DNA of 64,000 bases from Loxodes magnus (lineage: Eukaryota; Ciliophora; Karyorelictea; Loxodida; Loxodidae). Position numbers and translations under genes: made by a program. The DNA lies in NCBI GenBank assembly GCA_946699065.1, contig CAMPDV010000307.1, positions 124,001 through 188,000 of the forward strand, given 5' to 3'. Of this stretch, positions 1 through 27,215 are shown in pieces. The notes below the pieces were generated by a model. That model worked only from the letters and a program-made list of their open reading frames with translations. It was not told the DNA's origin and did no database searches. Each line of letters starts with the position of its first letter. The stretch's first letter is position 1.

Positions 1-524
1 AAGATATTTTGTAATTGATTTGCACTGCTACAATGTTTATAGGAATCAGGCATATAATAATTAGCAAGACAATCCTAGTAAATTGTTTGAAAAGTATATT
101 CTCTTCTAAGCTTTGGAAAAGGAATTGCTGGCGTTTTTAAAGTATTTAGTAAATAATCTTGCATTATTTTAGCTTCATTTTCCGTCCAAATATTTCCTTC
201 AAGTTGTTTTCACTAGATTTAAGATCCTCTCTTATATAATAGTTTCCAATTAACTTTGACAATTTCTTTAATCACTTATAAGTCTCTTTCCTTTTATTAT
301 TTTACTTTATTAGATAAGGTTTCCAAATTAAACCAATTGTTTTCTCTAATTCATTTCTTCTTGCATAGCATGAATCATATTTCATTGCTATCATTTATTA
401 TATTATTAGTTCTTTTGCACAGCAGCATTACTTTAAAAAGATCATTTATATCTAAAAATGCTGCTATCTTGGTCAGTGTATTTTTCATCAAAAACTTCTT
501 TTATAAGCTTGGACTTTCCTACAT
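1..524 (-). CDS. F-box protein, 5' part (runs off the left edge)
   Basis: Read with TAA/TAG as Gln, a minus-strand frame opens at an ATG at 524 and is still open at base 1. Residues about 17-56 look like an F-box (ITKIAAFLDINDLF-like core, then VMLLCKRTNNIINDSNEI), the module that binds Skp1 in SCF ubiquitin ligases. The part after it (LEGNIWTENEAK, then a Cys-containing stretch near the edge) is not recognised. In-frame TGA codons occur at codon 50 (375-377), codon 58 and near 220. The first sits exactly where F-boxes have their conserved C-terminal Trp; three TGG codons are also present. No frameshift is seen over 174 codons. A long plus-strand frame in 256-540 is the antisense shadow of this gene. 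Family call moderate; whether it is a gene or a pseudogene is open. Confidence 0.55.
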
Positions 525-2605
525 CTTTATTATTATCTAAAAACTAATTCTTTTATATCAATATTTTTTAACAGTAAAAATCATTTATGCTATTATTTTA
601 TATCTATTTAAGAATCTTTAAAAATGTAAAGCCAACAATTTTCTTTAGTATTCCTATATAAATTAAAATGTAAAAATTAATTATAAGATACTTAAATTTG
701 ATAAGGATAATTTTATTTGGTTTAATTCATTTTTATATTATAAGACTCTTAGTATTTTTAACTTATTTTTATTATAAGTTTTAAAGTATATGGATCTTAA
801 GTTACCTATCTCTATTAATTTATTCTTACTATTTTATTTTTATTTATTATGATATTTTCTTTTGCTACTATGCTTACTTGTTATAAAATTAATAAATTAA
901 GATTCACCCTAAAATTTAGGGATAATGCTGGTTACTTTTTAAATTAACTCAAAATAGCATATTTGGATTATTGTACTTAGATATAGGATATTTTCTTGTC
1001 GATCTTGAACAATTATATGATATCTCAAATACATCCAATGAAATTTAAAATCTTCTTAAATTAAATTGATAATAATTATTGTTGCAAAATAAATGGAATT
1101 TTGTCTTTTTAGCGAAGAATATGGTTTATAAAAGTGGTAATTTATTAGCGAACTTTTATTATTTTATATATTTCTTTGAAAATTCTAATAAACTTTTTTT
1201 ATCTTTATTCAATAACTTATCATCTTCTGAATGCTTATATTAATCCTCTTTACTTTTTCTCTTACAATTACATCTCTATTTTCTGCTAAAATTATTAAGG
1301 TTATATAACTAAATATTCCTTTTTAGTAAAATTTTCTTTAAAAGTTGTTATTAAAATAATTAATCTTTGATATCTCAAAACTCTGAGATGCAACTTCTAA
1401 TTATGATGTTAGATTAATTTGGGGATTAAATATGTTTAGAAAGTTTGCAGAGTCTTTTGTTTGCAATTTCTTTGATACTATTAAGATTCTTTTTTAAACA
1501 TCTTATTAACAATAAATTTTGTCTCTTCCTTTTAAAGGCACTCTCAGCTAGTTTCTGTTTTATTTTATCATATTATTATTTTAATTTTTCTTAAACAATT
1601 ACTAAGTTATTTTAATCATTGACCTCTGTTCTCTTGGATTTTATGGTTTTTCTTGAAGATAAAAATGTTTAATTAAAGACAATAATATAAGAAATATTTC
1701 CTTTATCGGTCTTTGAAATGCTTCTAGTTCTTTATTTTCGTAACTAAATTTAAGATTTTTTATTCATAAAAATAGTTTTTTACTTGCAATCTATTCCATT
1801 ACTAGCAGAATCATCTAGCTAGCTAAGATGTCTATTTTATAATTAAGTCTATTTCGAATCTCGATCTTCGCTACTAATTATTTTATCATCTCTATTTATT
1901 TAAAAAGCTAACTATTAGAATAATAGAAGTCGAAATCAAGATTTTAAACAAGTTACTTTAAAGAAAAAGTCTATTATTTTATACTTAAGAATTGGTAAAT
2001 TCCTCAGGATAGAAATTTACTAGGCATTTATATCCTAAAATCTTCCAGACAATAATTAGACCAAAAGCAAGAGAACAGTAAAATTTAGCTTTATGACAGT
2101 GAAATTTTTATAATGGTTGAATTTCTTATTCTTTAGCACCAATAATTAGCGATTCTCTTTAATATTAACTAAGATGTGATATATTTGGATTAATATTTGA
2201 ATATTTGCTTAATAATATAAAGGTAACATTTAAATATCACATAAAGTTTTAAAACTAATAACGAAGAATTGAAAAACTCTGCTTAAATTTCTATTTTTAA
2301 TTAAAGCTATTATATCTAAATAAATAAATTTAATGGTAATATAAATACTAAAAATAAAAAGATTTTTAATCAAAACTTAATTGAAAACTTTTAATTTTTT
2401 AATTAAGAAATCATTATACTTATCTGTTCATTTTAATATTATATTCTTTTGCTGATATTTTTTCAAGAATTAATACCTTTTATTTTACTCATAAATAACT
2501 AATTTAAAAATTGAAGATATTGTAAAATAAATAGAAAAGAAATAATAATTTTCCTCATACTATCAATATATGGTTATTGTAGAGTTTAGACTATTAATTT
2601 ATTCT
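525..2605. other. A+T-rich spacer with a weak minus-strand reading
   Basis: No recognised gene. On the minus strand a frame between about 1990 and 880 reads as Lys/Asn/Ile-rich protein when TAA/TAG are Gln (for example EDDKLLNKDKKSLLEF near 1230), but it holds about five TGA codons in 370, close to chance for this base composition. I do not call it a gene. Confidence 0.3.
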
Positions 2606-3468
2606 TTATTTTTCTACTATTAAATTAAATTAAAAATTTTATGGATAATGGAATGTTTCCTTAATATGTCCATAACCCCCTGCGTTACCTTTTACAGGGT
2701 CTCGGACTTGCTGGTGTCTCCACCCAAGTTCATTTCCGAGCTTTCCGAATGGTCTTGGAGTTATCTTTTTTCTTCAAAGCTAACCATCCGAGGAAGGATA
2801 AAAATTTGTAAGTTCTTTCCAAATATTTTTTATTGTTTACCAATTCCTCCTACACTTTTTTCATAAGTGAAATAAACTGTCGCATATATAACATTTTTTC
2901 TTGAAAATTTTTTCTAACGTCATAGGTTATTCTTCTATCACCATTGGATTATTATTTCTTTTTAGGCCTTATTCCTCTAATTTCCCTAGTCTCTTTTTTA
3001 TGTCCGTTATTTATTAAAATGCGTTTTCATACTTTAAGAAATCTGTTCCCATTTATTCATCAATTCTTACTATATCGCATTCTATTTCTTAATATCTGTT
3101 GTTAATGTCCTCTTTGGTCACAAATTCATTATGCGGTCTCTCGTCCTCGACATGATCTTATAAGTCTTATTGTAAACTCAAGACGTAATATTCGAGGTTC
3201 TCTACCTTATAAATGTAATCAAAAATGGTTTAAGCAAGAGACTTTTTATCTAAGTTCATAAGTTGTTCGAAGGTGTAACTTTTTTTTAAAATCTTGGAAG
3301 GAAATTATTTTTCTTCTGAGATTTTACAATATTATTTATTTTTTGTCTTTGTTGGAGTTTGTTAGAGTTGAAAAGATTGATCTAAGGAGCTACAAGAAGC
3401 CTTTTAGTCGAGAAAGTCTTTGTTCCATTCCGCCATCTTTTTTTTCTAATATATTATTTTTCTACTAT
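2606..3468 (-). mobile_element. ORF1-only retroposon, copy A, with 15-bp target duplication
   Basis: An 833-bp body (2621-3453) lies between perfect 15-bp direct repeats TTATTTTTCTACTAT at 2606-2620 and 3454-3468. On the minus strand the body starts 17 nt before the ATG of one coiled-coil/zinc-knuckle ORF and ends in TTTAA repeats (2621-2640). It is clearly more GC-rich (2650-2780) than its surroundings. Target duplications plus a simple-repeat 3' tail are signs of target-primed reverse transcription (established for non-LTR elements). There is no reverse transcriptase in the body, so it must have been moved in trans. Confidence 0.8.
2640..3436 (-). CDS. ORF1/Gag-like protein of copy A: coiled coil and CCHC zinc knuckle
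   Basis: ATG at 3436; the frame is open to a TGA at 2774-2776 (220 codons) and stays protein-like beyond it to about 2640. The N-terminal third is Gln/Ser/Lys-rich, the middle (LSLQQDLQDHVEDE, then DIKKRLGKLEEQ) is predicted coiled coil, and 2852-2893 encodes a C-x2-C-x4-H-x4-C knuckle (CYICDSLFHL-TGA-KKC). One in-frame TGA lies inside the knuckle at 2861-2863. The TGA at 2774 falls at the aromatic position of a motif shared with the other copies (SDGQL-TGA-RKKITPRP here, SDGSIYKIKMEPR at 40.65 kb), so the original protein read through it. CCHC knuckles bind nucleic acid in retroelement ORF1/Gag proteins. No frameshift is seen, so this is the best-preserved ORF1 in the window. Confidence 0.7.
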
Positions 3469-3899
3469 ACTATTATTTTAAAATTAGTAAATCCAAATAT
3501 TTAATTTATTAGCAAACACTAAAAATATAATATTTTAAAAGTATATATGTTTATCAAATTTCTAATTAAAATACTAAAAATTAATTCAAAAAATCTAAAT
3601 TTAAAATGTAAAGGCTAAAACTACCGAAAATATATTAGAGAATTATTTTAATCTATTTGTTTGCCTTTATTTACATATAATCAATTAAATCAATATAAAT
3701 CAAAGTATAAATCAAATTATTAATATATCAAAAATATTAAATCAAATACTCTTCAATTTTCACCTATAATGAGTTAACTTATTTATTTATTCTCCTCCTT
3801 ATCACTTTTCATTCAAAGTGGACTCATTTTTTATACGTCTAAGCCGTAATATAAGAATGATATCCTCTAGTGATCATCAAACTGACCTAATTAGAATTT
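3469..3899. other. A+T-rich spacer
   Basis: Mostly low-complexity A+T sequence; no gene or RNA recognised. Confidence 0.5.
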
Positions 3900-4433
3900 T
3901 TGGGCATTAAATAAGTATCCATGTTCTGATAAAATTCCCATTCTGAAAATAAAGAAAGAAAGGCATTTGAGTCTCTACAGTTTAGCTGTGCTGCAAGAGC
4001 TTCCATTTAATACAAGCGATTAAACTAATAAATCTCAAGAGAAAACCTTAGGAAATTGTATTAAGCACAGTAGATTGATATTCCATTGAAATTTCCTTTA
4101 AACATGCTGGAAAATCTTATTGCGTTCAAGATCCAAAATCCTAGCCTTCTATTTTTAATATAATATATAATAAAAAATATTTAAATGAAGGTTTCCAAAT
4201 TTTTGCCTTCTTAGCTTTAGTAGGTGGAACCTCTGAAGGTAATTAAGCCATCAATCAAGGGATGAAGAAAGGATAGCTTCATCAGAGTTGGGAAATTAAG
4301 TACCTATAATAAACTTTTTTTCACTGAATTAATTTATCCTTGAAACCTGGAAAGAAATAACCTTTGCTTGTGGCGCTGTTTGACCTTGAAGTAAGTGATA
4401 TGTGATCACAGCTTTAGTAGTTTCAAGAGACAT
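3900..4433 (-). pseudogene. Broken gene of unknown family
   Basis: GC is higher here than in the flanks. From an ATG at 4433 the minus strand reads MSLETTKAVITYHLL, then QGQTAPQAKVISF. After that the frame can be followed only in pieces: PGTQFPNSDEAILSSSL and DGLITFRGSTYQSQEGKN lie in different frames near 4260-4220, and KEISMEYQSTVLNTIS lies near 4090. A 44-nt GT...AG stretch between the first two pieces could be an intron, but later shifts look like indels. I do not recognise the family. It ends close to the start of the 6.2-kb tandem duplication. Confidence 0.35.
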
Positions 4434-4774
4434 TCTTAATTTTTCAAGATTTATCCCATTTAATCGTGATAAATCTAATAATAGTGAAACCGCGTTAATT
4501 TAATTAATTAATATAAAAAATATAACAATTAAAATATACATGCTTTATTTAAAGGTGAAAGTAAATATTTAAAAATTAAAAATAATTAGAAATTAAAGCT
4601 AAAATATTATTAAATAGACTTTTAATTTTTTATTATAATTCATCTTATAGATTTTTATTGATATGCTATTGTATTTTAGAAAATTTAAAAACCTTAGTAT
4701 CAATAATTATATAAAATAAATATGATAAAACTCAAATTTTAAAATTATTATAATAATTAAAAAGATCTTTAAAT

Positions 4775-5800
4775 TCAATATTTTAAAGTAATTAGTTTAA
4801 AGTTTTATTGCTGCTCAAAAAATATTTTTCTCACTTCTTTAGAGATTCTTAACTTATTTAAATTCTTTAATAACTCCTCAAATATTTCATTCACTAATTT
4901 GTTATTTTCTTCATATGGAAGGTTTTAATCCATTAATTATTGCACTTTTAAATGTAAGCTAGTTTGTATTTTTCCTTGCTTCTACAACTAAATTAATACT
5001 TTTTATAAATTATCTTCGTATTTTATCTGAGTAACTATTATTTATTCTATCCCATATCCTTATTAAAGTAAAGCGATTATAATCTCACTATTAATTGTCG
5101 CTAAATTTTTTATTTTTATTATTATATTTATCATGTTTTATAGATTCATTTCTATAGGGTCTTATTATAGATTATAAATAGGGCTTATTTACTAGTAATC
5201 TTAATGAAGCTTTGATATTTCGTTCTAAACTTGTTCATTTAGGTCGTCATTTATCATGTCTAAAGTAGGAATTCCTATAAGTTACAAACTTTATTTGGAA
5301 GCTTATGTTTTTATTATTTGGCTAATAGTGTACTTGTTACTTTCAGTCAACATTCTCCTAACTATACAACAATTTTAATGTCCAATATTTTCTAGATCTT
5401 GCTTAATGATATGAAAAGCAAATAAATAAAAATTGCTGCTTTATTAAAACTGATTAACTGCTTCTTTGATGGAACTTTTTATTTATGCGTTATATTTATA
5501 TAATTCTCCTATTTTCTCATTCTAATGCTTATCAATATCAAAAAGTCAAGCAATTCCCATTTTTTTCAAATGTCTTTCATATCCATATAATGTAGAGCGT
5601 GATTCTCCTTTTTATTCGCAAATAGAATTCTTTACTTTAAGTAAATTTTTCTTTGTTTAGGTTTTACCCTGCTATAGATTATAATCCTTCATTAACACAA
5701 TTATTTCATAAATAAATCTTGAATCTTTTCTGCTTCTTTTCTTCTCACTTGATTGTTCAACTAGATCACCTTTTACTTCTTAAAATGGTTAAATCTTCAT
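4775..5800 (-). CDS. Unrecognised 341-residue protein, copy 1
   Basis: ATG at 5800 to TGA at 4775-4777 gives 342 codons with no frameshift and a single internal TGA at codon 85 (5546-5548). So few TGA codons at this base composition (chance would give about six) supports real coding. The N-terminus is basic (SSEKKRSRKDSRF), followed by a Gln/Lys-rich segment and STLYGYERHLKKMGIA, which could be a helix-turn-helix-like DNA-binding region (inference). The C-terminal 150 residues are helical and Asn/Gln-rich (MINDDLNEQVQNEI, VNEIFEELLKNLNKL). There is no signal peptide or membrane segment. An identical-looking copy lies at 10977-12002. I do not recognise the family. Confidence 0.65.
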
Positions 5801-8800
5801 ATTAAATAAAGAATAATTGAAAATAATAAAGATAAACTTAGTTATAGTACAAATTATTTATTATCTTATAAATTAATTTCTTTATAAACTTAATATATTA
5901 GGAACTTTTCCAGTAATTGAAGTGGTGAAAAAATATATAATAACAATGACTTTATATAATAAATTAAAAAGTCATTTGATTATAAAATAATAATTTATGT
6001 ACTTTTTGTTATAACTTTATAATACAAATTTTCTATTCGTTTGCTTTATAAAATTTGTATCTTTCTAAAGAAATTAAAAGCTTTAATTAAGTTGTCTTTG
6101 TGTTATAAGTTTATTATAAGTAATTTATAGCTTTATCTTTATATTTTACTAATTTACTCTTTTTATTAATATTTATTTCAAGCTTGGTTAAGTATGCTTG
6201 TATTTCTTCTATATGTAAGTTAGGATGTTATATAGTCTTTTACGCTTCATTGTTTAATTTAAATTTTTTTAAGTTTTATATATCTAAAATAGTTTGTGGA
6301 AGATTGAAATTTAATCTTAAAACTATTTACAATAATTTTTATAATTTTTATTGTTGGAGAAGAGATATAAAGCTTACAAGGTATATTAAAATATTGGATT
6401 TTTAGATTATATTTATACAGATTAATTTTTACTTTATTCATTAAGTTAAGATAAGCTAGCTAAAGCTAATTTAAATTTTTGGATATCCTTTATAAAAGGT
6501 ATCTTAAAGTATGTTTAAACTGAGTAAAGAATTACAATTAATATATTTCTAAATAAAGCAACAGAAATAATTAAGAAAAGTATAACTAAAAATAAATTAT
6601 TAAATGGATTAATAATTTCTTTTGTAAATTATTAAAGGTTATATTATAAATCCTTTAGATTTCATAAATTATTAAAGAAATTAAAGCTTTATAGCTATTC
6701 TTTTTATCTTTTTTCTAATTTAAAGTTTTCTATTATTGAAGGAAAAATAGCTAGTTTTATCTAAATTTTATTTATTCTTTTGCTTATATAAAGAAGCATT
6801 CAGTTCAGCTATTATTTTTTTGCTCTTTATTTAAGGAAATGGTATCTATGTAATAATAAGCTCAATAATACCAGTTAATTATTGATTAAAAGATATATAG
6901 TTGTTTAGAAAAGAACTTATGAATAAGCTTTTGCTACTTAAAAGCTAAGATAAATATTGTTAATTATACTAATTCTTAGTCTAGCTAAGACCTTTGCTGA
7001 TATGATAAGGTTTATAAAATTAAATTTAACCTATTATTGCTTACTTAATTTTCAGTTAAGAATTTTAAAGCAAGGTAGAATGTTAATGAAATATATAAAG
7101 GGATCTTTTGGAATAAAATAAGAAATTTATTATTTAATCTAAAAAGGAAATTTTATCAGGTTAAATGATAAAGTACTCTAAATAGTTAATTTAGAAGTTA
7201 ATCTTCCATCTACAAGAAAGTATCAATACTCTTAAAAGGTATTCCAATATTTTTTTATTAGTTGTTTTCTCTCCAATAATCAAGGATTTTTAGTTTAAAG
7301 TTCTAAATATAAATAATAGATATATTTCTTATTGCTAATTTCTAATAAATTAGATAAAGTTCTTATGATTTATATGAGATATATGAAGTTATCTAAAACT
7401 TGATAAATAAAGATATTATTAATTAAATTTAAATCAATAAGTGTATAAGTATATTTATTAAGTTTTTATCATTAGTTGTTAAAAATAGAAAATTTCATAT
7501 TGAAGATATATATTTCTCAAATATCATATATAAATAAAGCAATATTGGTCTTCTTTTAAAGTATAATAAATTCTAGTGCATACCTACCAACATTATATTT
7601 ACCATAATATTTCAATAGTTAATCAACATTAAATATTTTATTCTTCGCTTTTCTTCTACTTATATATAAGCTACTAAAGAAATAATTTTAGCTTTTTTGT
7701 ATGTAACTCTGTATTAAAGAAGCATTTCGAATTTTTTTAAATAAAATAAAACTGATTATTTATAATTCCTTATGTTCAAGTTTTTTATTTTAAAATTTCT
7801 TATCTCTTGATTATTTTGGCAATAATTCACTCCATTTAAGATAGATATTAATTATTTATAATCAATCTCATCTGTTAAAACGTACAAATATTATAGTATA
7901 ATTTTAGGATTTAATAATTCGGTTTTATTCTTTATTTTTGAACTTATTATAAAATAAAATTATTTCAATCAAATTTTTCTTTTAACCAAATTGATTTCAA
8001 TGTGAACAGTCAAGTTTAAATTTATATCTCATTGTTTTTTCGCTCAATTTTGATATTTCTTTAAAAGTTATTTTAGAAATATGGATTTAAATAAAATTAT
8101 TCTACTAAATCTTTCATTTATTTTTATTGCATCTATCCTTTTATTTTTTCCTTCAAAAAGACTCTTTTATTATAATTTTTTTTAATACAAAGGTAAAATT
8201 CAATCATTACCAAAGAATCTACATTTTGAGTTTATAGTAAAGTTGATATATATGTGTTTTACTTAGAGAAATAGCATTAATTTAATAATTAGTATCCATA
8301 AAAATTAAAAAGCATCAAGTTTCACTATATTTAGTCTAAATCATAAAACTAATTTAAAGTAGTTCATTTATCTTTAATGATAACTTAATTTTATCTATTA
8401 AGCTATCTTTCTGAATGTTAATTATACTATTAAATTCTAAACAATTAGCTTATTTCAGAAAGCTTTTATGAAATTATTCTTTTTATTAAATAAATAAAAA
8501 GTTTGGATAAATAGTTTATAGATATAGCTATTATTTTAAGATAGTAAATGAAGTAGATAAAAATTTAATATTTTAACTTAAAAAGGAAATAGTAATAATA
8601 AAGGAATTTGAAAGTTTTATGTTTGATAAATGATAAAAGCCTAAATATAAGCTAGAACATTGTTAAGTATACTATTAATTTATTTAGAACTTTAGATATA
8701 TACAATAATTTATTTATGAGTTTATGTAGATTTAATATCTTTAGATTGGTTATAGTTAGGATTGTTTATTTAATTAAATATAGATAAAGATTTCAGAAAA

Positions 8801-9551
8801 ACTAATTATAAAATACTAATATTTTATTTACTTATAATATTCCTTTTTTTTAAATCTTACGAAGCTTCTATTTCTTTATAACCTTTTTTAAAGTAGGCAA
8901 TTATATGGATGTATAAAAATACAATAAATATAAACATTTAAAGGCTGAATTAGTTTATTTTCTTTAAGCTAAAGTACCTGTATTTATAAAAGTTCAACCT
9001 ACTTTTTTTAATGTAAGTGCATTCATTAGTTATTAAATTTCCCTAGAATAGATTTAATACAATAAACTTAATTTAAGAGTTAGTGCTTTCCTTAAGTCAA
9101 AATTATAAATTAATATATCTAGCTGCTATTTATTAGCAATCAGAATCATTATATAAGAGTATATTCTTATCTAAAGCAAAAATTATAAACTTTTTCATAT
9201 GTATTAAATTTATTTCGTTATGGTGCTTACTCTTATGGAAACAGAAATAGAAGTAAATGTAATTATTAAACTAATATGCAAGCTTTTCAAGAGTATATTT
9301 AATTATAAATTTAAATATACCTTATGAAATATCTAGAAGTTAAATAATAAAGTTCATTAAAATGTATATAAAACACATAAGATATTAAAGTAGAAATTAA
9401 AGCCAAATTAATAGCTACTATTTTTATTTATTCTAGTTTATTAATATAACTTAATACATTTCTTTATTTTATTTAAGCTTATTTAGAAATAACTAATGTG
9501 AGTAGAATTAAAATAATCTTATTTATGATGTTTGTTGTTATGCAAATCTGC
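5801..9551. other. A+T-rich block inside duplication unit 1, no recognised gene
   Basis: Short frames here (for example 6184-6405 plus and 6259-6441 minus) overlap on opposite strands and are of low complexity; I do not accept them. No RNA gene or transposon signature was seen. Confidence 0.4.
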
Positions 9552-10460
9552 TCATTTAAATAGAGGAAGATAATAATCAAAATGAGATTTGAAGATTCTT
9601 AATCCTTTATCAAGTTGCTTTAGCTCTTACATATCACTTTGCTCTAAGTTTATTTAGACTGATTTTAAGTTTTCTACTAATCTATTTTAATTACTAGTTT
9701 TAGGAATTACTGCTATATCTCTTTGGAGCTAGTAAGCAATCATAGTTTATGCTAATGTAGCATTGTATTTTTAAGCGATTTTCTTTATAACTTAATCTTC
9801 AAAAACGTTAAAATTTCTTCCCTTTTAATCCTACAAAGAATTAGAACCTAATGGAGCGTAAGCAACTGGCATTACATCATACTTTAAGCAGAACTCTACA
9901 AGCTCAGGTTGCTAGTTGTACATATGAATTTCGACTTAATTACAAATAGGCTTTATTTTAGCATATGATAGCAAATCGTATACTAAAATTGTATTATAAT
10001 TACTAACTCCTATATGCTTTACTAATCCTTCTTCAACTAAGCTTTCAAACTACGCCCAAACAAAATGTCTAGGAATGAAATCAATATCTCTAACTCCATT
10101 TTTATCTTCTTTAAAGCAATAAGGTCAATGAACTAGCAAGCAATCAAAATAATCAAATCCAATATTTTTAAGTGATTATACACAAGTTTCTCTTATTTTT
10201 CTCTACTCATTCATCCAAACTTTACTAGTAACAAACAAATCCTCTCTTCTAACCAGTCCTTTCTAGAAAACATTCTAAAAAGCTTTGTTCAACTCAGCAA
10301 AATTAAAATAGAAACTAGCAGTGTCAAAATGTCTTATTCCCTATCTAACTGCTGTTTCAACTATACTTGTAAAAACATTAGGATCTATTTAATAAGTACC
10401 AAGTCCTAATCTCTAAAATTAAGTTCCTGAAGTGAGAATTTTATAAGGAATCTTAAACAT
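9552..10460 (-). CDS. Aldo/keto reductase family protein, copy 1, with TGA at the HWP tryptophan
   Basis: ATG at 10460 to TGA at 9552-9554, 302 residues, in the usual size range of NADPH-dependent aldo/keto reductases, which are single (beta/alpha)8 barrels in the cytosol. Family marks: RHFDTASFYFN with catalytic Asp46 and Tyr51, FVTSKVW with Lys80, LLVH with His111, KHIGVSNY, PICNQVEIHMYNQQPELVEF, VMPVAYAPLGS, and near the C-terminus the cofactor-loop motif AVIPKTSNQNRLVENL. All four catalytic residues are kept. The single oddity is TGA at codon 112 (10125-10127), exactly the near-invariant Trp of the family's HWP motif. Two other Trp codons (KVW, FVWA) are TGG. The gene is intact otherwise and is repeated at 15745-16653. 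Substrate cannot be inferred. Confidence 0.85.
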
Positions 10461-10976
10461 ATAATATATAAAAATTAACTAAATAAGCTAGCAATTTAAT
10501 AATTTATCTACCTAATTATAACTCTTAAGTTAAAACTTCTAATAAGCTAAGTATTTAATTAGCTATATATCTTTATAAAAATAATTATTAGGCAATCTAT
10601 TTATCTTATTTATAAACAGTTCCCTTAGAATTTTGCTTTTTTTTTAGATTATAGTTACTTTTAAAAAATATTTAAAATCTAATAATAGTGAAACCGCGTT
10701 AATTTAATTAATTAATATAAAAAATATAACAATTAAAATATACATGCTTTATTTAAAGGTGAAAGTAAATATTTAAAAATTAAAAATAATTAGAAATTAA
10801 AGCTAAAATATTATTAAATAGACTTTTAATTTTATTATAATTCATCTTATAGATTTTTATTGATATGCTATTGTATTTTAGAAAATTTAAAAACCTTAGT
10901 ATCAATAATTATATAAAATAAATATGATAAAACTCAAATTTTAAAATTATTATAATAATTAAAAAGATCTTTAAAT

Positions 10977-12002
10977 TCAATATTTTAAAGTAATTAGTTT
11001 AAAGTTTTATTGCTGCTCAAAAAATATTTTTCTCACTTCTTTAGAGATTCTTAACTTATTTAAATTCTTTAATAACTCCTCAAATATTTCATTCACTAAT
11101 TTGTTATTTTCTTCATATGGAAGGTTTTAATCCATTAATTATTGCACTTTTAAATGTAAGCTAGTTTGTATTTTTCCTTGCTTCTACAACTAAATTAATA
11201 CTTTTTATAAATTATCTTCGTATTTTATCTGAGTAACTATTATTTATTCTATCCCATATCCTTATTAAAGTAAAGCGATTATAATCTCACTATTAATTGT
11301 CGCTAAATTTTTTATTTTTATTATTATATTTATCATGTTTTATAGATTCATTTCTATAGGGTCTTATTATAGATTATAAATAGGGCTTATTTACTAGTAA
11401 TCTTAATGAAGCTTTGATATTTCGTTCTAAACTTGTTCATTTAGGTCGTCATTTATCATGTCTAAAGTAGGAATTCCTATAAGTTACAAACTTTATTTGG
11501 AAGCTTATGTTTTTATTATTTGGCTAATAGTGTACTTGTTACTTTCAGTCAACATTCTCCTAACTATACAACAATTTTAATGTCCAATATTTTCTAGATC
11601 TTGCTTAATGATATGAAAAGCAAATAAATAAAAATTGCTGCTTTATTAAAACTGATTAACTGCTTCTTTGATGGAACTTTTTATTTATGCGTTATATTTA
11701 TATAATTCTCCTATTTTCTCATTCTAATGCTTATCAATATCAAAAAGTCAAGCAATTCCCATTTTTTTCAAATGTCTTTCATATCCATATAATGTAGAGC
11801 GTGATTCTCCTTTTTATTCGCAAATAGAATTCTTTACTTTAAGTAAATTTTTCTTTGTTTAGGTTTTACCCTGCTATAGATTATAATCCTTCATTAACAC
11901 AATTATTTCATAAATAAATCTTGAATCTTTTCTGCTTCTTTTCTTCTCACTTGATTGTTCAACTAGATCACCTTTTACTTCTTAAAATGGTTAAATCTTC
12001 AT
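10977..12002 (-). CDS. Unrecognised 341-residue protein, copy 2
   Basis: Same length, start context and reading as the gene at 4775-5800, including the internal TGA at codon 85 (11748-11750). See that entry for the description. Confidence 0.65.
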
Positions 12003-15000
12003 ATTAAATAAAGAATAATTGAAAATAATAAAGATAAACTTAGTTATAGTACAAATTATTTATTATCTTATAAATTAATTTCTTTATAAACTTAATATAT
12101 TAGGAACTTTTCCAGTAATTGAAGTGGTGAAAAAATATATAATAACAATGACTTTATATAATAAATTAAAAAGTCATTTGATTATAAAATAATAATTTAT
12201 GTACTTTTTGTTATAACTTTATAATACAAATTTTCTATTCGTTTGCTTTATAAAATTTGTATCTTTCTAAAGAAATTAAAAGCTTTAATTAAGTTGTCTT
12301 TGTGTTATAAGTTTATTATAAGTAATTTATAGCTTTATCTTTATATTTTACTAATTTACTCTTTTTATTAATATTTATTTCAAGCTTGGTTAAGTATGCT
12401 TGTATTTCTTCTATATGTAAGTTAGGATGTTATATAGTCTTTTACGCTTCATTGTTTAATTTAAATTTTTTTAAGTTTTATATATCTAAAATAGTTTGTG
12501 GAAGATTGAAATTTAATCTTAAAACTATTTACAATAATTTTTATAATTTTTATTGTTGGAGAAGAGATATAAAGCTTACAAGGTATATTAAAATATTGGA
12601 TTTTTAGATTGTATTTATACAGATTAATTTTTACTTTATTCATTAAGTTAAGATAAGCTAGCTAAAGCTAATTTAAATTTTTGGATATCCTTTATAAAAG
12701 GTATCTTAAAGTATGTTTAAACTGAGTAAAGAATTACAATTAATATATTTCTAAATAAAGCAACAGAAATAATTAAGAAAAGTATAACTAAAAATAAATT
12801 ATTAAATGGATTAATAATTTCTTTTGTAAATTATTAAAGGTTATATTATAAATCCTTTAGATTTCATAAATTATTAAAGAAATTAAAGCTTTATAGCTAT
12901 TCTTTTTATCTTTTTTCTAATTTAAAATTTTCTATTATTGAAGGAAAAATAGCTAGTTTTATCTAAATTTTATTTATTCTTTTGCTTATATAAAGAAGCA
13001 TTCAGTTCAGCTATTATTTTTTTGCTCTTTATTTAAGGAAATGGTATCTATGTAATAATAAGCTCAATAATACCAGTTAATTATTGATTAAAAGATATAT
13101 AGTTGTTTAGAAAAGAACTTATGAATAAGCTTTTGCTACTTAAAAGCTAAGATAAATATTGTTAATTATACTAATTCTTAGTCTAGCTAAGACCTTTGCT
13201 GATATGATAAGGTTTATAAAATTAAATTTAACCTATTATTGCTTACTTAATTTTCAGTTAAGAATTTTAAAGCAAGGTAGAATGTTAATGAAATATATAA
13301 AGGGATCTTTTGGAATAAAATAAGAAATTTATTATTTAATCTAAAAAGGAAATTTTATCAGGTTAAATGATAAAGTACTCTAAATAGTTAATTTAGAAGT
13401 TAATCTTCCATCTACAAGAAAGTATCAATACTCTTAAAAGGTATTCCAATATTTTTTTATTAGTTGTTTTCTCTCCAATAATCAAGGATTTTTAGTTTAA
13501 AGCTCTAAATATAAATAATAGATACATTTCTTATTGCTAATTTCTAATAAATTAGATAAAGTTCTTATGATTTATATGAGATATATGAAGTTATCTAAAA
13601 CTTGATAAATAAAGATATTATTAATTAAATTTAAATCAATAAGTGTATAAGTATATTTATTAAGTTTTTATCATTAGTTGTTAAAAATAGAAAATTTCAT
13701 ATTGAAGATATATATTTCTCAAATATCATATATAAATAAAGCAATATTGGTCTTCTTTTAAAGTATAATAAATTCTAGTGCATACCTACCAACATTATAT
13801 TTACCATAATATTTCAATAGTTAATCAACATTAAATATTTTATTCTTCGCTTTTCTTCTACTTATATATAAGCTACTAAAGAAATAATTTTAGCTTTTTT
13901 GTATGTAACTCTGTATTAAAGAAGCATTTCGAATTTTTTTAAATAAAATAAACTGACTATTTATAATTCCTTATGTTCAAGTTTTTTATTTTAAAATTTC
14001 TTATCTCTTGATTATTTTGGCAATAATTAACTCCATTTAAGATTGATATTAAATATTTATAATCAATCTCATCTGTTAAAACGAAAAATATTATAAATAA
14101 TTTTAGGATTTAATAATTCGGTTTTATTCTTTATTTTTGAACTTATTATAAAATAAAATTATTTCAATCAAATTTTTCTTTTAACCAAATTGATTTCAAT
14201 GTGAACAGTCAAGTTTAAATTTATATCTCATTGTTTTTTCACTCAATTTTGATATTTCTTTAAAAGTTATTTTAGAAATATGGATTTAAATAAAATTATT
14301 CTACTTTCATTTATTTTTATTGCATCTATCCTTTTATTTTTTCCTTCAAAAAGACTCTTTTATTATAATTTTTTTTAATACAAAGGTAAAATTCAATCAT
14401 TACCAAAGAATCTACATTTTGAGTTTATAGTAAAGTTGATATATATATGTTTTACTTAGAGAAAGAGCATTAATTTAATAATTAGTATCCATAAAAATTA
14501 AAAAGCATCAAGTTTCACTATATTTAGTCTAAATCATAAAACTAATTTAAAGTAGTTCATTTATCTTTAATGATAACTTAATTTTATCTATTAAGCTATC
14601 TTTCTGAATGTTAATTATACTATTAAATTCTAAACAATTAGCTTATTTCAGAAAGCTTTTATGAAATTATTCTTTTTATTAAATAAATAAAAAGTTTGGA
14701 TAAATAGTTTATAGATAAAGCTATTATTTTAAGATAGTAAATGAAGTAGATAAAAATTTAATATTTTAACTTAAAAAGGAAATAGTAATAATAAAGGAAT
14801 TTGAAAGTTTTATGTTTGATAAATGATAAAAGCCTAAATATAAGCTAGAACATTGTTAAGTATACTATTAATTTATTTAGAACTTTAGATATATACAATA
14901 ATTTATTTATGAGTTTATGTAGATTTAATATCTTTAGATTGGTTATAGTTAGGATTGTTTATTTAATTAAATATAGATAAAGATTTCAGAAAAATTAATT

Positions 15001-15744
15001 ATAAAATACTAATATTTTATTTACTTATAATATTCCTTTTTTTTAAATCTTACGAAGCTTCTATTTCTTTATAACCTTTTTTAAAGTAGGCAATTATATG
15101 GATGTATAAAAATACAATAAATATAAACATTTAAAGGCTGAATTAGTTTATTTTCTTTAAGCTAAACTACCTGTATTTATAAAAGTTCAACCTACTTTTT
15201 TTAATGTAAGTGCATTCATTAATTATTAAATTTCCCTAGAATAGATTTAATACAATAAACTTAATTTAAGAGTTAGTGCTTTCCTTAAGTCAAAATTATA
15301 GATTCATATATCTAGCTGCTATTTATTAGCAATCAGAATCATTATATAAGAGTATATTCTTATCTAAAGCAAAAATTATAAACTTTTTCATATGTATTAA
15401 ATTTATTTCGTTATGGTGCTTACTCTTATGGAAACAGAAATAGAAGTAAATGTAATTATTAAACTAATATGCAAGCTTTTCAAGAGTATATTTAATTATA
15501 AATTTAAATATACCTTATGAAATATCTAGAAGTTAAATAATAAAGTTCATTAAAATGTATATAAAACACATAAGATATTAAAGTAGAAATTAAAGCCAAA
15601 TTAATAGCTACTATTTTTATTTATTCTAGTTTATTAATATAACTTAATACATTTCTTTATTTTATTTAAGCTTATTTAGAAATAACTAATGTGAGTAGAA
15701 TTAAAATAATCTTATTTATGATGTTTGTTGTTATGCAAATCTGC
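12003..15744. other. A+T-rich block inside duplication unit 2, no recognised gene
   Basis: Counterpart of 5801-9551 with small indels and substitutions. Nothing recognised beyond the repeat. Confidence 0.4.
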
Positions 15745-16653
15745 TCATTTAAATAGAGGAAGATAATAATCAAAATGAGATTTGAAGATTCTTAATCCTT
15801 TATCAAGTTGCTTTAGCTCTTACATATCACTTTGCTCTAAGTTTATTTAGACTGATTTTAAGTTTTCTACTAATCTATTTTAATTACTAGTTTTAGGAAT
15901 TACTGCTATATCTCTTTGGAGCTAGTAAGCAATCATAGTTTATGCTAATGTAGCATTGTATTTTTAAGCGATTTTCTTTATAACTTAATCTTCAAAAACG
16001 TTAAAATTTCTTCCCTTTTAATCCTACAAAGAATTAGAACCTAATGGAGCGTAAGCAACTGGCATTACATCATACTTTAAGCAGAACTCTACAAGCTCAG
16101 GTTGCTAGTTGTACATATGAATTTCGACTTAATTACAAATAGGCTTTATTTTAGCATATGATAGCAAATCGTATACTAAAATTGTATTATAATTACTAAC
16201 TCCTATATGCTTTACTAATCCTTCTTCAACTAAGCTTTCAAACTACGCCCAAACAAAATGTCTAGGAATGAAATCAATATCTCTAACTCCATTTTTATCT
16301 TCTTTAAAGCAATAAGGTCAATGAACTAGCAAGCAATCAAAATAATCAAATCCAATATTTTTAAGTGATTATACACAAGTTTCTCTTATTTTTCTCTACT
16401 CATTCATCCAAACTTTACTAGTAACAAACAAATCCTCTCTTCTAACCAGTCCTTTCTAGAAAACATTCTAAAAAGCTTTGTTCAACTCAGCAAAATTAAA
16501 ATAGAAACTAGCAGTGTCAAAATGTCTTATTCCCTATCTAACTGCTGTTTCAACTATACTTGTAAAAACATTAGGATCTATTTAATAAGTACCAAGTCCT
16601 AATCTCTAAAATTAAGTTCCTGAAGTGAGAATTTTATAAGGAATCTTAAACAT
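15745..16653 (-). CDS. Aldo/keto reductase family protein, copy 2
   Basis: Second copy of the reductase gene, 302 residues from ATG at 16653 to TGA at 15745-15747, with the same catalytic Asp, Tyr, Lys and His and the same TGA in the HWP motif (16318-16320). Confidence 0.85.
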
Positions 16654-16871
16654 ATAATATATAAAAATTAACTAAATAAGCTAGCAATTTAATAATTTAT
16701 CTACCTAATTATAACTCTTAAGTTAAAACTTCTAATAAGCTAAGTATTTAATTAGCTATATATCTTTATAAAAATAATTATTAGGCAATCTATTTATCTT
16801 ATTTATAAACAGTTCCCTTAGAATTTTGCTTTTTTTTTAGATTATAGTTACTTTTAAAAAATATTTAAAAT

Positions 16872-18993: not shown

Positions 18994-19897
18994 AATTAAT
19001 ATTTAGTGTATAATATCATTTACTTTTAGTAGGTAAATTCTTAAATTTAGTTAAATTTAGAGGAATTATTACGATTCTTTCTTATTTAGATATATCTTTA
19101 AATTGTATTTTACTATTATTTTTTTAATTCATTTTTTTTGAAAAAAAGTTATTTGGTTAATTATTTATTGAATACTGATTTTATTGCTATATGATCTAAA
19201 TAGCTATTTTTATAGTTATAAATTAATAAATATAAATTAATATTTTCTTTAAAGTAAGCTTTTTATTCTAATGATTTAATAACAACGCTTAGTTACTTAC
19301 TTTAAAATTTCTAAGATAAATTTTTTTATTTATGTTTAGAGCAAGATGAAATATTTTTTAACTTTCTATTTCTAAATGTTAAAAAATCCTTTAAAATAAA
19401 AAATATATAAACTGTGTAGTGATGATCTATTACATTTTAATATGAAAACTACTTAGAATCTAAGATTAAGAAAATTTAAGCAATTTTTTAATAGAGTAGT
19501 TTTTTAGTCAATCTAATTTCTTTCAAAAGCACCTTGAAATCTAAAATAGTTCTACGACATTCTTAAATTTTCGCCTTAAATATTTTAAAAGTGCTTGCCT
19601 TTAACTGTATAAGCCTACATTATTATCTATTAGTTATAAATTGAAAATTACAATTTTCCCCATAAATTTCTTCAATTTTCATAATTTCGTCTATAATGAT
19701 TTTTATTTATTAAAATGATTAAGTATAAATTTATTTTATATTACTTTATTATTAAGAATTTTATAATGCTTAGTAATTTTTATTTTTAATTTAAGTATTA
19801 ATTTCATTTCTCCTAGTTAAATTATGCTTTCTTTATTAAATTAAATTGATTTACAAAATTATTTATCAAATCATTAAAAAGTTAAATTATTGCTTTA
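18994..19897. other. A+T-rich spacer
   Basis: No gene recognised. The stretch 19500-19620 is slightly richer in GC but gives no convincing frame. Confidence 0.35.
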
Positions 19898-20825
19898 TAA
19901 TTGATTCTTCATATTAAAAAATGGAAGGCTTAGAGAAAGGTTTCTACACCACCTCCAGGAAATAGGAGAGGAATCCAGAAGCCACTCTTAATCAGTCGTC
20001 TTACACTTAACCCTAATCTTCTTCTTAATAAGACTAAACTCCGGTGAAGTAATTTTAATCTTCCTTACCCAGGGAAGAATACCCAATTGCTAGGACAAGC
20101 CATGAACTCACTCGTCAACGCAGGAAAAGCCAAGGAAGCAGCCTAAGTCGGCTCTACATTAGGAGGTGTCGGAAGTCTATCCATCCGGGTAGTTGAGCAT
20201 AAAAAAACTAATCAAGGTAATCATAAACCTATAGGAAGAGGTTAAGAAGCTCAAGAGGGAAAATACGAAGCTAATGGATTTAATTGAGCAACAGGACTCA
20301 AGAGAGCTTCGAATGGCAAATTGGGAAAGGGAGCTTGACACTCTCTGGAAGTATTATTAGGAAGAGTTGAAACATATGAGCGCCTCAATAAAGACGGTAC
20401 AAGATTAGAATAAGGAAATAATACTAAGTTAGAGACAAGAAATTCCTAAGATCGACAAAATGGAAATAGAAGAAGAGCAGGTAATCAAGATGGAGCCGGC
20501 TAGAAAAATAAAGAAGAAATGTTACTTTTGTAAAAGCTAGAATCATCTGTACAGAAGATGTAAGAAATTCTAGAAATTCTAGAAATTCAAGAAAGAATAC
20601 TGAATTAAAGAAGAAAAGGAAAGGAAGAAACTGTATTGCAATAAAGACGGACAAATATACAAGAAAAAATAAAAACAATCAAGAACTTCAAGAATTGAGA
20701 AGATGAGAATTGAGACAAGAGAGAATCAAGAAGAAAACCACCAAGATTAAAAAACTTTTATTTTATGCGGTGGCTTGAAGCTACTGCAGAACATTTAAAT
20801 TGAATTGAATTGTTAATTGATTCTT
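19898..20825 (+). mobile_element. ORF1-only retroposon, copy F, with 12-bp target duplication
   Basis: A 904-bp body (19910-20813) lies between perfect direct repeats TAATTGATTCTT at 19898-19909 and 20814-20825. The body begins 11 nt before the ATG at 19921 and ends in ATTGA repeats (about 20796-20812). It is about 40% GC within 20% GC flanks. Confidence 0.8.
19921..20800 (+). pseudogene. ORF1/Gag-like protein of copy F
   Basis: The N-terminal part (Ser/Pro/Gln-rich) is frameshifted. From about 20125 the frame reads KPRKQPKSALHQEVSE, a long coiled coil (LQEEVKKLKRENTKLMDLI), and a CCHC knuckle at 20520-20561 (CYFCKSQNHLYRRC). After it come KKEY-TGA-IKEEKERKK and CNKDGQIYKKK. The TGA at 20601-20603 aligns with TGG in copy H (NYWIKEQQKKK). 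Related to the ORF at 39.9-40.8 kb over its whole length. Confidence 0.65.
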
Positions 20826-21812
20826 AAGAAGTTTCTATTCGTTAATAATTAAAATTTCATAAGAGGTAGTATACTATGTTTATACTCTAATGTTTTATCT
20901 TTCTATTTATATACTCACATTATGTATATTACTAAATCAAATATCAATACTTAAGATTAAAATTAAAAAACTTGTTTACAATTAGATTAATTTTAACTAT
21001 TCTAATTACTTTTAAAATAAGTGCATAGCTTATTAAAAATGAATCTAATTATTAGTATTAACTTTCTTATTTTTATCTAACTATTTTAATAGAAACAATT
21101 TTTAGTTATGCTTTCAATTTTAGATAACTATGATTCCACTTTCCAATTAAATTATTAAGGAAATTTAATATAAATTTAAGTTTACTTTAAAAATTATTAT
21201 AGATCTTTTTAATTTTTATACTCTTAATTTACTTTTTTTAATTTATGTTAAAAGATATACAAACATATTTTAGATATGCGAATAATTATAGGGTATGAAA
21301 TTATAACTAAAAAGATTGAAAGTCATAAATTAAAATCATGGTAGATTAAATTTATTTATCCATTTTTATTTTTGGAATATAAATATGAATAATTATTTTA
21401 ATAATTTTTATCAAGCATAATATCATTTGGTATGCAAAGAAGAAAAATAAGCTTATATAAAATGCATACTAAATAGCATTGATGTTTAAAATTATAACAA
21501 ATATTTTGATTTTTAACTATTTAGTATGAGTATTATAATTATTATTTTTTTTATTTTTTTTTTATTTAGTTAATAATATAAAATTTAATTATTTTACTCT
21601 TTTTATTTTTGCATACCCATAAAATTTATTACAGAGTTGTAAACTTATATAAATAATAAAAGCTTTTAATTTAATTGAAAACAGGGAAAATAATATGATA
21701 AGTATATACTTTTTTGAATTTAATTTTTTCACTTAAATTTTTTTATTAGAAATTTGAAGAATATTCTTAAAATTTTATTTAATTGCATAAATGAAAGTTA
21801 TTATAAAAGTAC
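20826..21812. other. A+T-rich spacer
   Basis: Very low GC; no gene or RNA recognised. Confidence 0.45.
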
Positions 21813-22643
21813 TCAGCTCATCAGTATCTCAATGAATCTTTTTTCGTGTTCTTTTACCCACTTTTCAGTTAGTTCCGATGCTTCGCTTAAAGAAGCTGAT
21901 TTACTTCAATTTTTAACTTAAGCTATTAGAAATTAATTTGGAGCGTATATTTCTACATTTATCCAATTTGTTAGCAAATTCCTTCAGGCTTCATAAATTA
22001 CTACATAAACAGGCATACAACGAACTTAGTCATAAAAATATTCTTCATAGCACTTATGATTATTTAGACATTCTGGATGGAATTCTTAATTGTAAAGAAG
22101 ATTCAAAGGAGGCATATCTTATTTAAAAGGAGATGAAGAATTTTAGTATAAGTCATGCAATAGTCAGAATAATTCAGAAATGTTAGTACTTTCATAAAGT
22201 AAATTTGTATAGTTCTCAAAATAATCGCAGATTTATATGCAGTTATTATACAAAATTCCTTTTTGTATTTAACTAGAATTAACTATTGAATTAGGTATAA
22301 CTAAAGGAGATTATTTGTTACTTTAGATTACAAAATTATTTTATCTTTAATTTTCTAATTATTAGCTTTCATTTACTACACGAAATAGTTCTCCTTCTTA
22401 GAAAATTTGCTTTTCAAGAGCTGAGTCTTAATATATAAAATAAATATTTTGATTCTTTTAAGATCATAAGTCATATAAAGCAAATGAAATAGATATTAAT
22501 AAAGCTACTAATATTATAATTATTATAATCAAACATTTTTCTTTGCTTTTTCCTTACTTTTCAATACGTTTTTTAGGTTCATCAACATTAAAAGATTTGA
22601 AAAATGTAGTTTTTTGTTCTTCTTCAATTTCATTTTATTTCAT
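21813..22643 (-). CDS. Single-pass membrane protein with Cys-rich C-terminal part (paralog of 56.3 kb)
   Basis: ATG at 22643 to TGA at 21813-21815, 277 codons in one frame. The N-terminus is charged (EIEEEQKTT, then VDEPKKRIEKQGKSKEK), then comes a hydrophobic segment at residues 37-57 (six Ile in a row), which predicts a signal anchor with the C-terminus outside or lumenal. The outer part is Asn/Gln/Ser-rich and then holds CLNNHKCYEEYFYDQVRCMPV and TNWINVEIYAPNQFLIAQ. The gene at 56.3 kb keeps the same elements. Four internal TGA codons occur (codon 60 and after ELF, YEA and VKN) without any frameshift. The TGA after F in ELF is shared with the paralog. That TGA count is near chance, so the coding claim rests on the paralogy. 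Family not recognised. Confidence 0.5.
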
Positions 22644-22936
22644 TTTATTTTTTATATTTATTGAAATTTTTTTTAATTGTTTAATAAATAATAAAATAAC
22701 TTTAGTGAAAGTAGCTTAGTAGACTAATTTAAAAATAGCTACCGAAATTTAATGATAAATAGATTTAAAAAAAATAATAAAAAATTTTCACTTTTAGAAT
22801 TAAAATTTAGGGAAAATTAAGTGATAAGTTAGACTTTTTTAGTAACCATTTTAATACTAACTTTTATTCTAATTTTATAAAAAGTTTATTTTCAAATTTT
22901 TAATAAATTTGTATTTTTCTCTTTTTTTCTTGCTTA
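22644..22936. other. Spacer
   Basis: A+T-rich sequence between the membrane protein start and retroposon copy B. Nothing recognised. Confidence 0.3.
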
Positions 22937-23803
22937 AAAACATATTATTAATAATAATAATAATATACTTAAAGTTATTAAGGTTTTGCATTTCCTGGAA
23001 TTTTGACCAGTTCCTGCGGAAATTTTTTTAAACATGGGTGTGTTCCACGACCTTTTTTGAAAGTGGGAGGTTACCACTATAGACTTCCAAGTGGTCTTGC
23101 GAAGATTTTTTATTTATAAATCCCAGTTTGCGTTATCCATAGTTTGTTAAATTGTCTTCATGTTCTTTTCTGCTCTTATTCGTTTATTCTCTTTCATTAT
23201 CAGCAGTTTCTTAATGAATGATTATTTTATTTGCAATATCAGCACAGTTTATTTTCTCGTTTTTATTTCGTTCTTTTTATCGATAGTTTATTTTCTATTT
23301 TTTCTAATCTTTAAATGAAGTTCATATCGATCATTTCTTTTCCTGTTTTTATTCTACTTTTGAGTATATTGGTGTTTTTTCTTTTTCCATTTTCGTGTCA
23401 TATTTAAAGTTTAATTGTGACTAAGTTCAAAGTTGTTCTTCCGTTATCAAATTGCTTTGAATGAGTTGTCTTCTGAGTATTAATAATCTGTTGTTTTAAT
23501 CCTCTATGCTATTCATTAATTCCCTTATCTTTTCTCCTTAGTTATAAGCTGCTTCTTCATACTTTGAAATTAATTTTTACATTTTATCTAATTAAATTTA
23601 AAGTTTTTGATCAGCTTCGTTCTTAGGTTATCTTATCTCTATAGGTCCTACCATAACTTTACCTCCTGATGACGAACTTGGCTCCTCTCGTTGCTATTGT
23701 TTTTTCCAAATTTCATTTGCCGCTATTCTCTTTAAGTTTTTAAGTTAATTCCTTGAGAATCGAAGAGATTAATCCATTTTTTTTATTTAAAACATATTAT
23801 TAA
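22937..23803 (-). mobile_element. ORF1-only retroposon, copy B, with 15-bp target duplication
   Basis: An 837-bp body (22952-23788) lies between perfect repeats AAAACATATTATTAA at 22937-22951 and 23789-23803. The minus-strand 3' end is a TAA/TTA microsatellite (22950-22968). The 5' end lies 11 nt before the ATG at 23777. Same family as copies C, D and E. Confidence 0.8.
22960..23777 (-). pseudogene. ORF1/Gag-like protein of copy B
   Basis: Starts MDQSLRFSRNQLKNLKR, then a Ser-rich stretch, a coiled coil (KLISKYEEAAYNQGEKI, SIEDQNNRLLILRRQL) and TEEQL-TGA-TQSQ. One frameshift lies near 23370-23330. The knuckle is at 23203-23244 (C-TGA-YCKQNNHSLRNC). Downstream NC-TGA-Q-TGA-KRINEQEQK is followed by KLWITQTGIYKQKIFARPLG and FKKGRGTHPC. 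TGA occurs at least five times. Sister copies have TGG at two of these places (see findings). Confidence 0.6.
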
Positions 23804-26350
23804 AAGTATGGATTTTAAATTTAGATAAAACAATTTAAAGAAATTAAATTTATCACATTTTATTAACTAATAAAAATATAAATATAATTTGTTAATTAAT
23901 GTATGCATTTTTTAAAATCTCATATCCAAATTTTATTTTATTTTATTAAATTGCTAAATTGAAATTTTATTAAGATTATAAATAAAAGAAAGCAAAACAT
24001 TCTAATTAAATAATTTTTAAATTTGGTAAAATTTTGATGTTTAATCTTTTAAATCAAGTATCTAATTTAAAATAGGCAATTTATTAATTAAAATGCAAAA
24101 ATATTTTTTAATTAGTTTTCTTTCATTTAATTTTTTTATAGTATGATAAATGAATAATAAAATTAAAGAAAATTAAAAATTTAAATTTATTTAAAAATCA
24201 TTAAAATTATGAGATATAAACTAATATAGTTATTTTATAAAGCTTTAACAAAATAAATACTAATCTCATAATGTATATTTATTCATCTTAATAAATTAGT
24301 ATATTGAAAATATTCTTAAACTATATCGTAGAAAATTTTAAAATTTTTTAAATAATTTATATTTTATTTAAGATGCATTTATGATATAAAAAATATTTTT
24401 ATGATGTTTTACTTTAATATTACACTATAATTTTCTTTAAAAATAATAAAGTTAAATAAAACTCTTTTCTAATCTAACTTATAAATTTTAGATGTCTTAA
24501 TATAATTTAATAAATTTTGATGGATTAGCTTAACATTTATATTGAATAAAATACAAATTTAAAATGTAAATTTAAAATAAATTTAGGATATTTTTAAGTA
24601 ACTTGGTTTGATTTTAATATAATTTTTATATGTTTTGAGAAAAAATCAGTTTAATTTAAAATGAAATACTTTAATTTAATTTTCATGATATATGTTATAC
24701 TTTTTAATGCTAATAAAAACAAAAAAATAGCCACTTTTTTAAATTTTTCAAAATAATTTATGAGAATTAACAAAATTTTAATCTTTATTTTTATTAAAAA
24801 AATAAAAATATCTTTAATTTAAATAATTTTTGAAAAAAATGTTATAAAGGTTTTATTTGGAATTAAAGTATATAAAATAATTTAGAAATTGTGTGTAATT
24901 TTATTTTTATAATTTTATTTTTATAATTTTATAGGCAAGTTATTTAAGAAAAAAACTTATTAAAAAAGACAAAATTAAAAAAAATAAAACACAAACTATA
25001 ATATAAAATTTAATTTAAAATAATAGTTTATTTTTTTATATATAAATAAAAATTTACAATTTTATAATTAACGGAAATAGGTGAAAATTAAAAAAAAATA
25101 ATAAAGCTGTAATCATAATTTTTATTCATAATTAGTTTAAAAGATTAAAAATATAAATAAATAAGGAACTTAAGCCTTATTTGATTTTATATTAAAAATT
25201 GGAAGAGTTTAATTAGAATAAGCTTATACCACTGAGGTAGATAAATTATATAATAGATATTAAAAAAACATATATATAACAAAAAATATAGTTGATCTTA
25301 TATTTTAAATAAATATAATATTTATGAAATTAATATAGAATTTAATTTCCACCTTAAAATATTACTTTTTTCACTTTTTAATAATAAATTTTAAAGCTTT
25401 TTCTCAATAATTTATATTTGAGAATTATTAATTTTATTTTTATTTTAGGATTGTTATATAAAAAAAATTTTGATAATTTTAGAATATTGAAAATAGAAAA
25501 AAATGTAAACTTATTTTTCATTTTAATGCTCAAAAAAGTCAAATTTAATTAATTTTAATTGTTAATTAAATTAGAATTCAAAAAATTAGCATCACTTTTT
25601 CTCGTATCTTTTTCTTTTATTTCTTAGTTTATTATAACTTTTTATAACTATAAATAAACATTTTTATGACTGTGTATGATTAAATCTAAGTAAATTTCAT
25701 AATACTAAATTAAATTAAAAATAATAAATACATTAAAAATAATATTTATACTATTAATGGAATTATTTAAAATTTATTCTTAAAAATATATAAAATTTAG
25801 CTCATCAAATAGTCAAATTATATTTACAATTTGCATTTAGCCAATTATTACTATAAAAAGAAAAAGAAAATTGCTTATAATGATTATTATATTTTAAATT
25901 GAATAAAATTTTAAAATCTTCTAAATTATATTCATTTCAAAGTTATCATTAATAAGTTATTTTATATTTATATTTTAGAGTAAATATAAAAATAGCTATA
26001 AAAATTAAAATAAATATTAAAAATATTAAAATAGAGTAATTGAACAAGTATATATGCATTAAATAAAAAAGTTTTGATATTAGTAATAATTTAAATAAGA
26101 ATGAAATTTAAAAATTATATTTAACAGCAAAAAAAAGTATAAACTTTAAATAATTTTAAAACTAAAAATATTAAAAAATGTATTGAAATTGTTAAAATAA
26201 AGTAAAAATTAATAAAATAATCGCAAACTTTTTTATTATAATAATAAAAAATTATATTATTCATTTTCGTTAAAAATAATTAAATAACAAAAATAATATA
26301 TTTTAATTATTTTCTAAATTAAAAAGTAATTATTATGATTAAGATATAAA
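23804..26350. other. Long A+T desert
   Basis: About 2.5 kb of very A+T-rich sequence with short homopolymer runs and small direct repeats (for example the ATTTTATTTTTATA pattern at 24898-24935). No gene, RNA or element edge seen. Confidence 0.45.
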
Positions 26351-27073: not shown

Positions 27074-27215
27074 TGGTGCGCTAATGAAGTGGTACACCGC
27101 CTAACTAAGCCTAGTAGAAATTCAAGACAAACTAATGGAGACAAGCTGATGGAATAGGTCAGATGGCTGACTACTATAAGGCTTTAACAAAGCTTTTTAA
27201 CTTTAACTTTAACTA
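26351..27215 (+). mobile_element. ORF1-only retroposon, copy G
   Basis: Closely matches copy I at 45843-46715 from the ATG onward and not upstream of it, so the 5' end lies within a few bases of the ATG. The 3' end is a GC-richer trailer (27060-27190) finishing in AACTTT repeats (27196-27215) that vary between the two copies. I could not define a convincing target duplication; an 8-9 bp ATATAAAA-like match exists at both ends. Confidence 0.65.

Follow-up and report, generated by a model that had tools for sequence, protein, structure and literature searches.

Background

Context-dependent stop codons are known from the ciliate Condylostoma magnum, whose code is listed as NCBI genetic code 28. 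Karyorelict ciliates, Loxodes among them, use NCBI translation table 27, in which UAA and UAG encode glutamine (Gln) and UGA is the sole stop codon, yet is read as tryptophan (Trp) where it lies at a sufficient distance 5' of the poly(A) tail (PMC11441545). The present analysis deals with bases 124001-188000 of contig C307 of Loxodes magnus, a stretch of 64,000 nucleotides referred to below as the window, in which two copies of an aldo/keto reductase gene and the 5' part of an F-box gene carry TGA codons within their reading frames. Searches were extended to the whole genome (705,730,643 bp in 7,843 contigs); the published somatic, or macronuclear (MAC), assembly of this species measures 706 Mbp (PMC11441545). 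The window genes almost certainly belong to the ordinary gene complement of a karyorelict ciliate nucleus and follow NCBI genetic code 27. The phenomenon is real and already known, being the published ambiguous code of Loxodes.

TGA codons at conserved tryptophan positions

All the reductase and F-box features of the window were read on the minus strand and translated with table 27. They are listed here with the tandem duplication that carries the reductase.

9552-10460, minus strand: first copy (copy 1) of the aldo/keto reductase gene, encoding 302 residues and ending in TGA at 9552-9554; Pfam Aldo_ket_red, 161.5 bits
10125-10127, minus strand: codon 112 (TGA) of copy 1, where the HWP motif has its Trp; Trp is the commonest residue of the column (5 of the 11 other distinct family members)
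15745-16653, minus strand: second copy (copy 2) of the aldo/keto reductase gene, with the same coding sequence as copy 1 (0 differences in 909 bases)
16318-16320, minus strand: TGA codon 112 of copy 2, from the reading of the frame
4471-10678, no strand: first unit of a tandem duplication of about 6.2 kb carrying the reductase; matching blocks at offsets of 6193-6204
10675-16871, no strand: second unit of the same duplication; matching blocks at the same offsets
3-524, minus strand: 5' part of an F-box gene, running past the start of the window; Pfam F-box, 22.4 bits; frame lost at C307:123709
375-377, minus strand: TGA at the Trp of the F-box; all 6 close siblings also have TGA here, and the diverged paralog L065 has TGG
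351-353, minus strand: second in-frame TGA of this gene; of 6 close siblings, 2 have TGG and 4 have TGA, as does L065
210-212, minus strand: third in-frame TGA of this gene; all 6 close siblings have TTA (leucine, Leu), whereas L065 has TGG

Each reductase frame consists of 303 codons, counting the terminal TGA, and includes 2 TGG, 11 TAA and 9 TAG codons; codon 112 is found within LVH-TGA-P. The translation of copy 1 matches the Aldo_ket_red domain over residues 18-284, the cut-off of this model being 24 bits. The F-box protein of the window passes the cut-off of Pfam F-box (20.5 bits) and scores 22.6 bits with F-box-like, under the cut-off of that model (24.3). The original prediction, made from the letters of the window, had placed a TGA at the Trp of HWP in both reductase copies and another, at 375-377, at the Trp of the F-box motif tail. 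Both placements were confirmed, the former by a codon 112 lying in an otherwise open 302-residue frame and the latter by frame reading and by the alignment of siblings, while two further TGAs of the F-box gene (351-353 and 210-212) had been overlooked. The same prediction spoke of ordinary cellular genes. This description fits, with the qualification that the genes belong to a segmentally duplicated, multi-copy block and that the F-box copy of the window loses its frame outside the window.

The extent of this block was established by searching the genome. Six near-identical reductase copies were found, three on C307 (two of them within the window) and the others on C584, C657 and C2410, with 98.1-99.7% identity to the first copy over about 2.06 kb. 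Copies of the F-box gene are located about 9-16 kb away on the contigs that carry reductase copies, as well as on C3484 and at another place on C307. From these alignments, the block formed by the two genes is a multi-copy segmental duplication, in which some copies could be haplotypes because the published assembly is not phased (PMC11441545). At C307:123709, the F-box copy of the window differs by one base in length from its sibling L061 and is out of frame thereafter. Decay of this copy or an assembly error may account for the difference; siblings with the longer frame exist.

The wider families of both genes were then compared codon by codon. For the reductase, 17 of the 19 matches were used, the short fragments L026 and L027 being omitted, and 12 distinct members were kept after dropping five near-identical copies. 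In this set, 5 of the 9 TGA codons fall in columns in which Trp is the commonest residue. Two of these five correspond to a second conserved Trp, in the relatives L019 and L023, and L019 (the same gene as L007) has TGG for the Trp of HWP. For the F-box gene, the paralogs L061 (C657) and L065 (C199) share an aligned open frame of about 670 codons with a ratio of nonsynonymous to synonymous substitution rates (dN/dS) of 0.22. Each of the 7 TGA codons in this pair has TGG or TGA as its counterpart, and the swaps go both ways; one TGG of L065 sits opposite Leu.

Codon meaning across the genome

The dyneins provide an independent sample of the same code. Among 46 matches to Dynein_C, 30 were used, and column depth allowed 44 of their 45 TGA codons to be scored; 37 of these 44 occupy columns with a Trp majority. 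On average, Trp makes up a fraction of 0.791 of the other sequences of the column for TGA and 0.814 for TGG, and no more than 0.04 for any other codon represented by at least 20 cells, the threshold of this comparison. Since TGA and TGG alike occupy Trp columns across the dyneins, the TGA codons of the reductase and F-box genes are not a matter of chance. At the level of sequence, these comparisons show that TGA acts as Trp across gene families and that selection acts, or has acted, on the genes bearing it. When TAA and TAG are masked in the 30 dynein stretches, the residue most often facing TAA (233 codons) and TAG (101) is Gln, with fractions of 0.189 and 0.204; Gln also leads opposite CAA (0.130) and CAG (0.166). 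By this measure, TAA and TAG occupy Gln columns, like CAA and CAG. Selenocysteine was set aside as a meaning of TGA, the TGA columns being those of Trp.

TGA is also found as the end of genes, in three genes only: the reductase, its paralog L007 (48% identical, with the TGA at the matching place) and the eRF1-like gene L079. A trait of table 27 is the depletion of coding UGA over about 20 codons before the stop, and in the reductase, a single gene, 190 codons separate the two TGAs. The GC content of the reductase is 0.286 in the coding sequence and 0.185 in the 200 bp after the stop, the published Loxodes magnus means being 33.5% for coding sequences and 18.6% for 3' untranslated regions (PMC11441545). 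The spacing of the TGAs and the low GC after the stop fit the position-dependent termination known from the literature. Under such a mechanism, an internal UGA would be decoded as Trp and a UGA near the end of the mRNA would act as a stop, so that the reductase would be read past codon 112 to give a 302-residue enzyme.

Constraint on the reductase in the presence of TGA112

The six near-identical copies vary at 7 of 909 coding sites (4 synonymous, 3 not) versus 41 of 1136 flanking sites (p = 1.2e-5). None of these 7 sites lies 5' of codon 112; for the part 3' of this TGA only, the comparison becomes 7 of 573 versus 41 of 1136 (p = 0.005). A more distant relative, L008 (C14), shares 797 of 909 coding bases with the window reductase and has TGA112 in common with it. 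L008 is plainly decayed, as it contains 11 separate indels of one or two bases. Out of 63 amino-acid differences between the two, 38 can be assigned to the L008 branch and 7 to the window branch (7 versus 38, p = 3e-6), while 18 could be placed on neither. With TGA112 present on both sides, this imbalance indicates that the lineage of the window reductase stayed constrained while carrying the TGA, unless the codon arose twice.

Alternative explanations

UGA might be a stop codon only, in which case the reductase and F-box genes would be pseudogenes that suffered TGG-to-TGA nonsense changes before their duplication. The change is an easy one, so that dead genes would be expected to tend towards TGA at Trp positions; the modelled share of new TGA codons derived from TGG ranges from 0.12 to 0.65 over the mutation settings tried, and decay does occur in these families, in L008 as in the frame loss of the F-box copy. 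The proportion of dynein TGA codons in Trp-majority columns nevertheless exceeds all these modelled shares, the F-box paralogs both carry TGA with a dN/dS of 0.22 and swaps in the two directions, and the branch and flank comparisons show a window reductase constrained in the presence of TGA112. This explanation is consequently regarded as highly improbable. The original prediction had left the choice between a code in which context makes TGA either Trp or stop and a recent nonsense change preceding the duplication. The former is upheld: it is the table 27 published for Loxodes (PMC11441545), and it holds in the genome's own dynein and F-box genes. The latter finds no support, given a TGA common to the diverged L008 and coding sequences that vary less than their flanks. 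A comparison with somatic paralogs, which the original prediction had proposed, loses its point, since the assembly agrees in size with the published MAC assembly. A different proposal would keep UGA as a general stop with programmed readthrough at chosen sites, yielding for instance a 111-residue and a 302-residue reductase. The position of every variable coding site after codon 112 agrees with it, but coding sequence 3' of this codon still varies less than the flanks, the truncated reductase would be deprived of most of the matched Pfam domain, and special sites would not explain why, in unrelated genes, many Trp positions have TGA instead of TGG. Such readthrough can be considered extremely unlikely.

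Several observations do weigh against a reading of these TGAs as Trp in functional genes. L008 has a TGA at codon 135 as well, where the window has TGG, and TGA112 itself could in principle have had two separate origins in the two lineages. Gene conversion could keep the reductase copies alike. The third TGA of the F-box gene faces Leu in all its close siblings, and this copy goes out of frame roughly 0.3 kb outside the window, past its start. Trp is not the commonest residue in the columns of 4 of the 9 reductase-family TGAs and of 7 of the 44 dynein TGAs. Lastly, the coding GC of the reductase lies under the published mean for coding sequences.

Tryptophan tRNA and release factor genes

The original prediction had proposed an inspection of the Trp tRNAs of this organism. 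Genes for tRNA-Trp(CCA) with a 4-bp anticodon stem, owing to a mismatch at positions 27-43, are arranged in two tandem arrays. The array on C67 has at least 48 units spaced by about 187 bp, with an A-C mismatch; that on C148 has at least 48 units spaced by about 241 bp, with a T-C mismatch, plus one gene nearby on the opposite strand. Genes for tRNA-Trp with a full 5-bp stem are located on C110. A looser tRNA-Trp pattern was found in 127 places, all with the CCA anticodon among the matches listed (100 of 127), and one exact pattern for tRNA-Trp with a UCA anticodon gave no match in the genome. An Rfam tRNA search scored 63 of 42,786 candidates, most of them with one identical score, and no tRNA-Trp was present among those scored.

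By analogy, the short-stem tRNA-Trp(CCA) of this genome would correspond to the known UGA-reading form. It is conceivable, albeit rather doubtful, that the gene dosage of this form, beside the normal one on C110, lets UGA be read efficiently as Trp, for example in the dyneins. The word "tRNA" is absent from the main text of the Loxodes magnus paper (PMC11441545), and a literature search for Loxodes tRNA-Trp tandem arrays gave, among the matches listed, none on the subject by title. These arrays, of which no mention was found in that text or among those matches, are only a lead, but a concrete and testable one on how UGA reading is supported.

As for release factors, the best eRF1-family match (C2) presumably resembles pelota rather than eRF1. 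Two eRF1-like genes, L079 (C196:19600-21200) and L080 (C196:54550-55000), lie about 35 kb apart. Their NIKS motif follows RAQ instead of the usual TAS. L079 is free of internal TGA codons, and its terminal TGA is closely followed by a further two in frame.

Other features of the window

Pfam scans covered 20 chosen stretches of the window, in which the only matches above cut-off were the reductase, the F-box and an otubain-like cysteine peptidase domain (PF10275, 59.7 bits) at 31288-33060 on the minus strand, in a 590-codon frame without internal TGA. A three-copy repeat family occupies 22942-23637, 38437-39132 and 47863-48545, with 62-95% identity to the reference copies; no Pfam match was found in the minus-strand frames of 22001-24400. 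A two-copy repeat (26333-27176 and 45825-46667) shows 94-99% identity at a spacing of about 19.5 kb. The inverted repeat 52336-52646 / 54601-54911, with 311-nt arms that are 98% complementary and separated by 1954 nt, is possibly a mobile element. Two islands, 19951-20550 and 40051-40350, reach a GC content of 0.36-0.44 versus about 0.2 for the window, with a strong three-base periodicity, and are perhaps coding; for the first, the plus frames of 19801-21801 gave no Pfam match above cut-off. A germline origin in Tetrahymena was also considered and rejected: a scan for the chromosome-breakage motif gave one site with two mismatches, which is not above chance, and the size of the assembly, 705.7 Mbp, speaks against such an origin.

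Comparison with known systems

This case illustrates that raw DNA can reveal what codons mean, as a suspicion raised by the letters alone led to an ambiguous code already published. The families of the reductase and of the F-box gene constitute compact natural cases for the study of how position sets stop versus sense, with paralogs that swap TGA and TGG and a dead copy beside constrained ones. With NCBI code 27 of Loxodes magnus, the window genes agree in TAA and TAG as Gln and in TGA as Trp internally and stop at the end, and no difference was found, as judged from sequence alone. Condylostoma magnum is alike in that internal UGA is Trp and position decides the stop, but all three standard stop codons also serve as stops in that ciliate (PMC4967479), whereas the gene ends observed here (reductase, L007 and L079) are TGA. 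Blastocrithidia likewise combines UGA as Trp with a tRNA-Trp(CCA) whose top anticodon-stem pair is unpaired, a likeness that here concerns genes only, with no UCA form by the one pattern used. It differs in being a trypanosomatid, with UAA as its stop and UAR as glutamate (PMC12153298).

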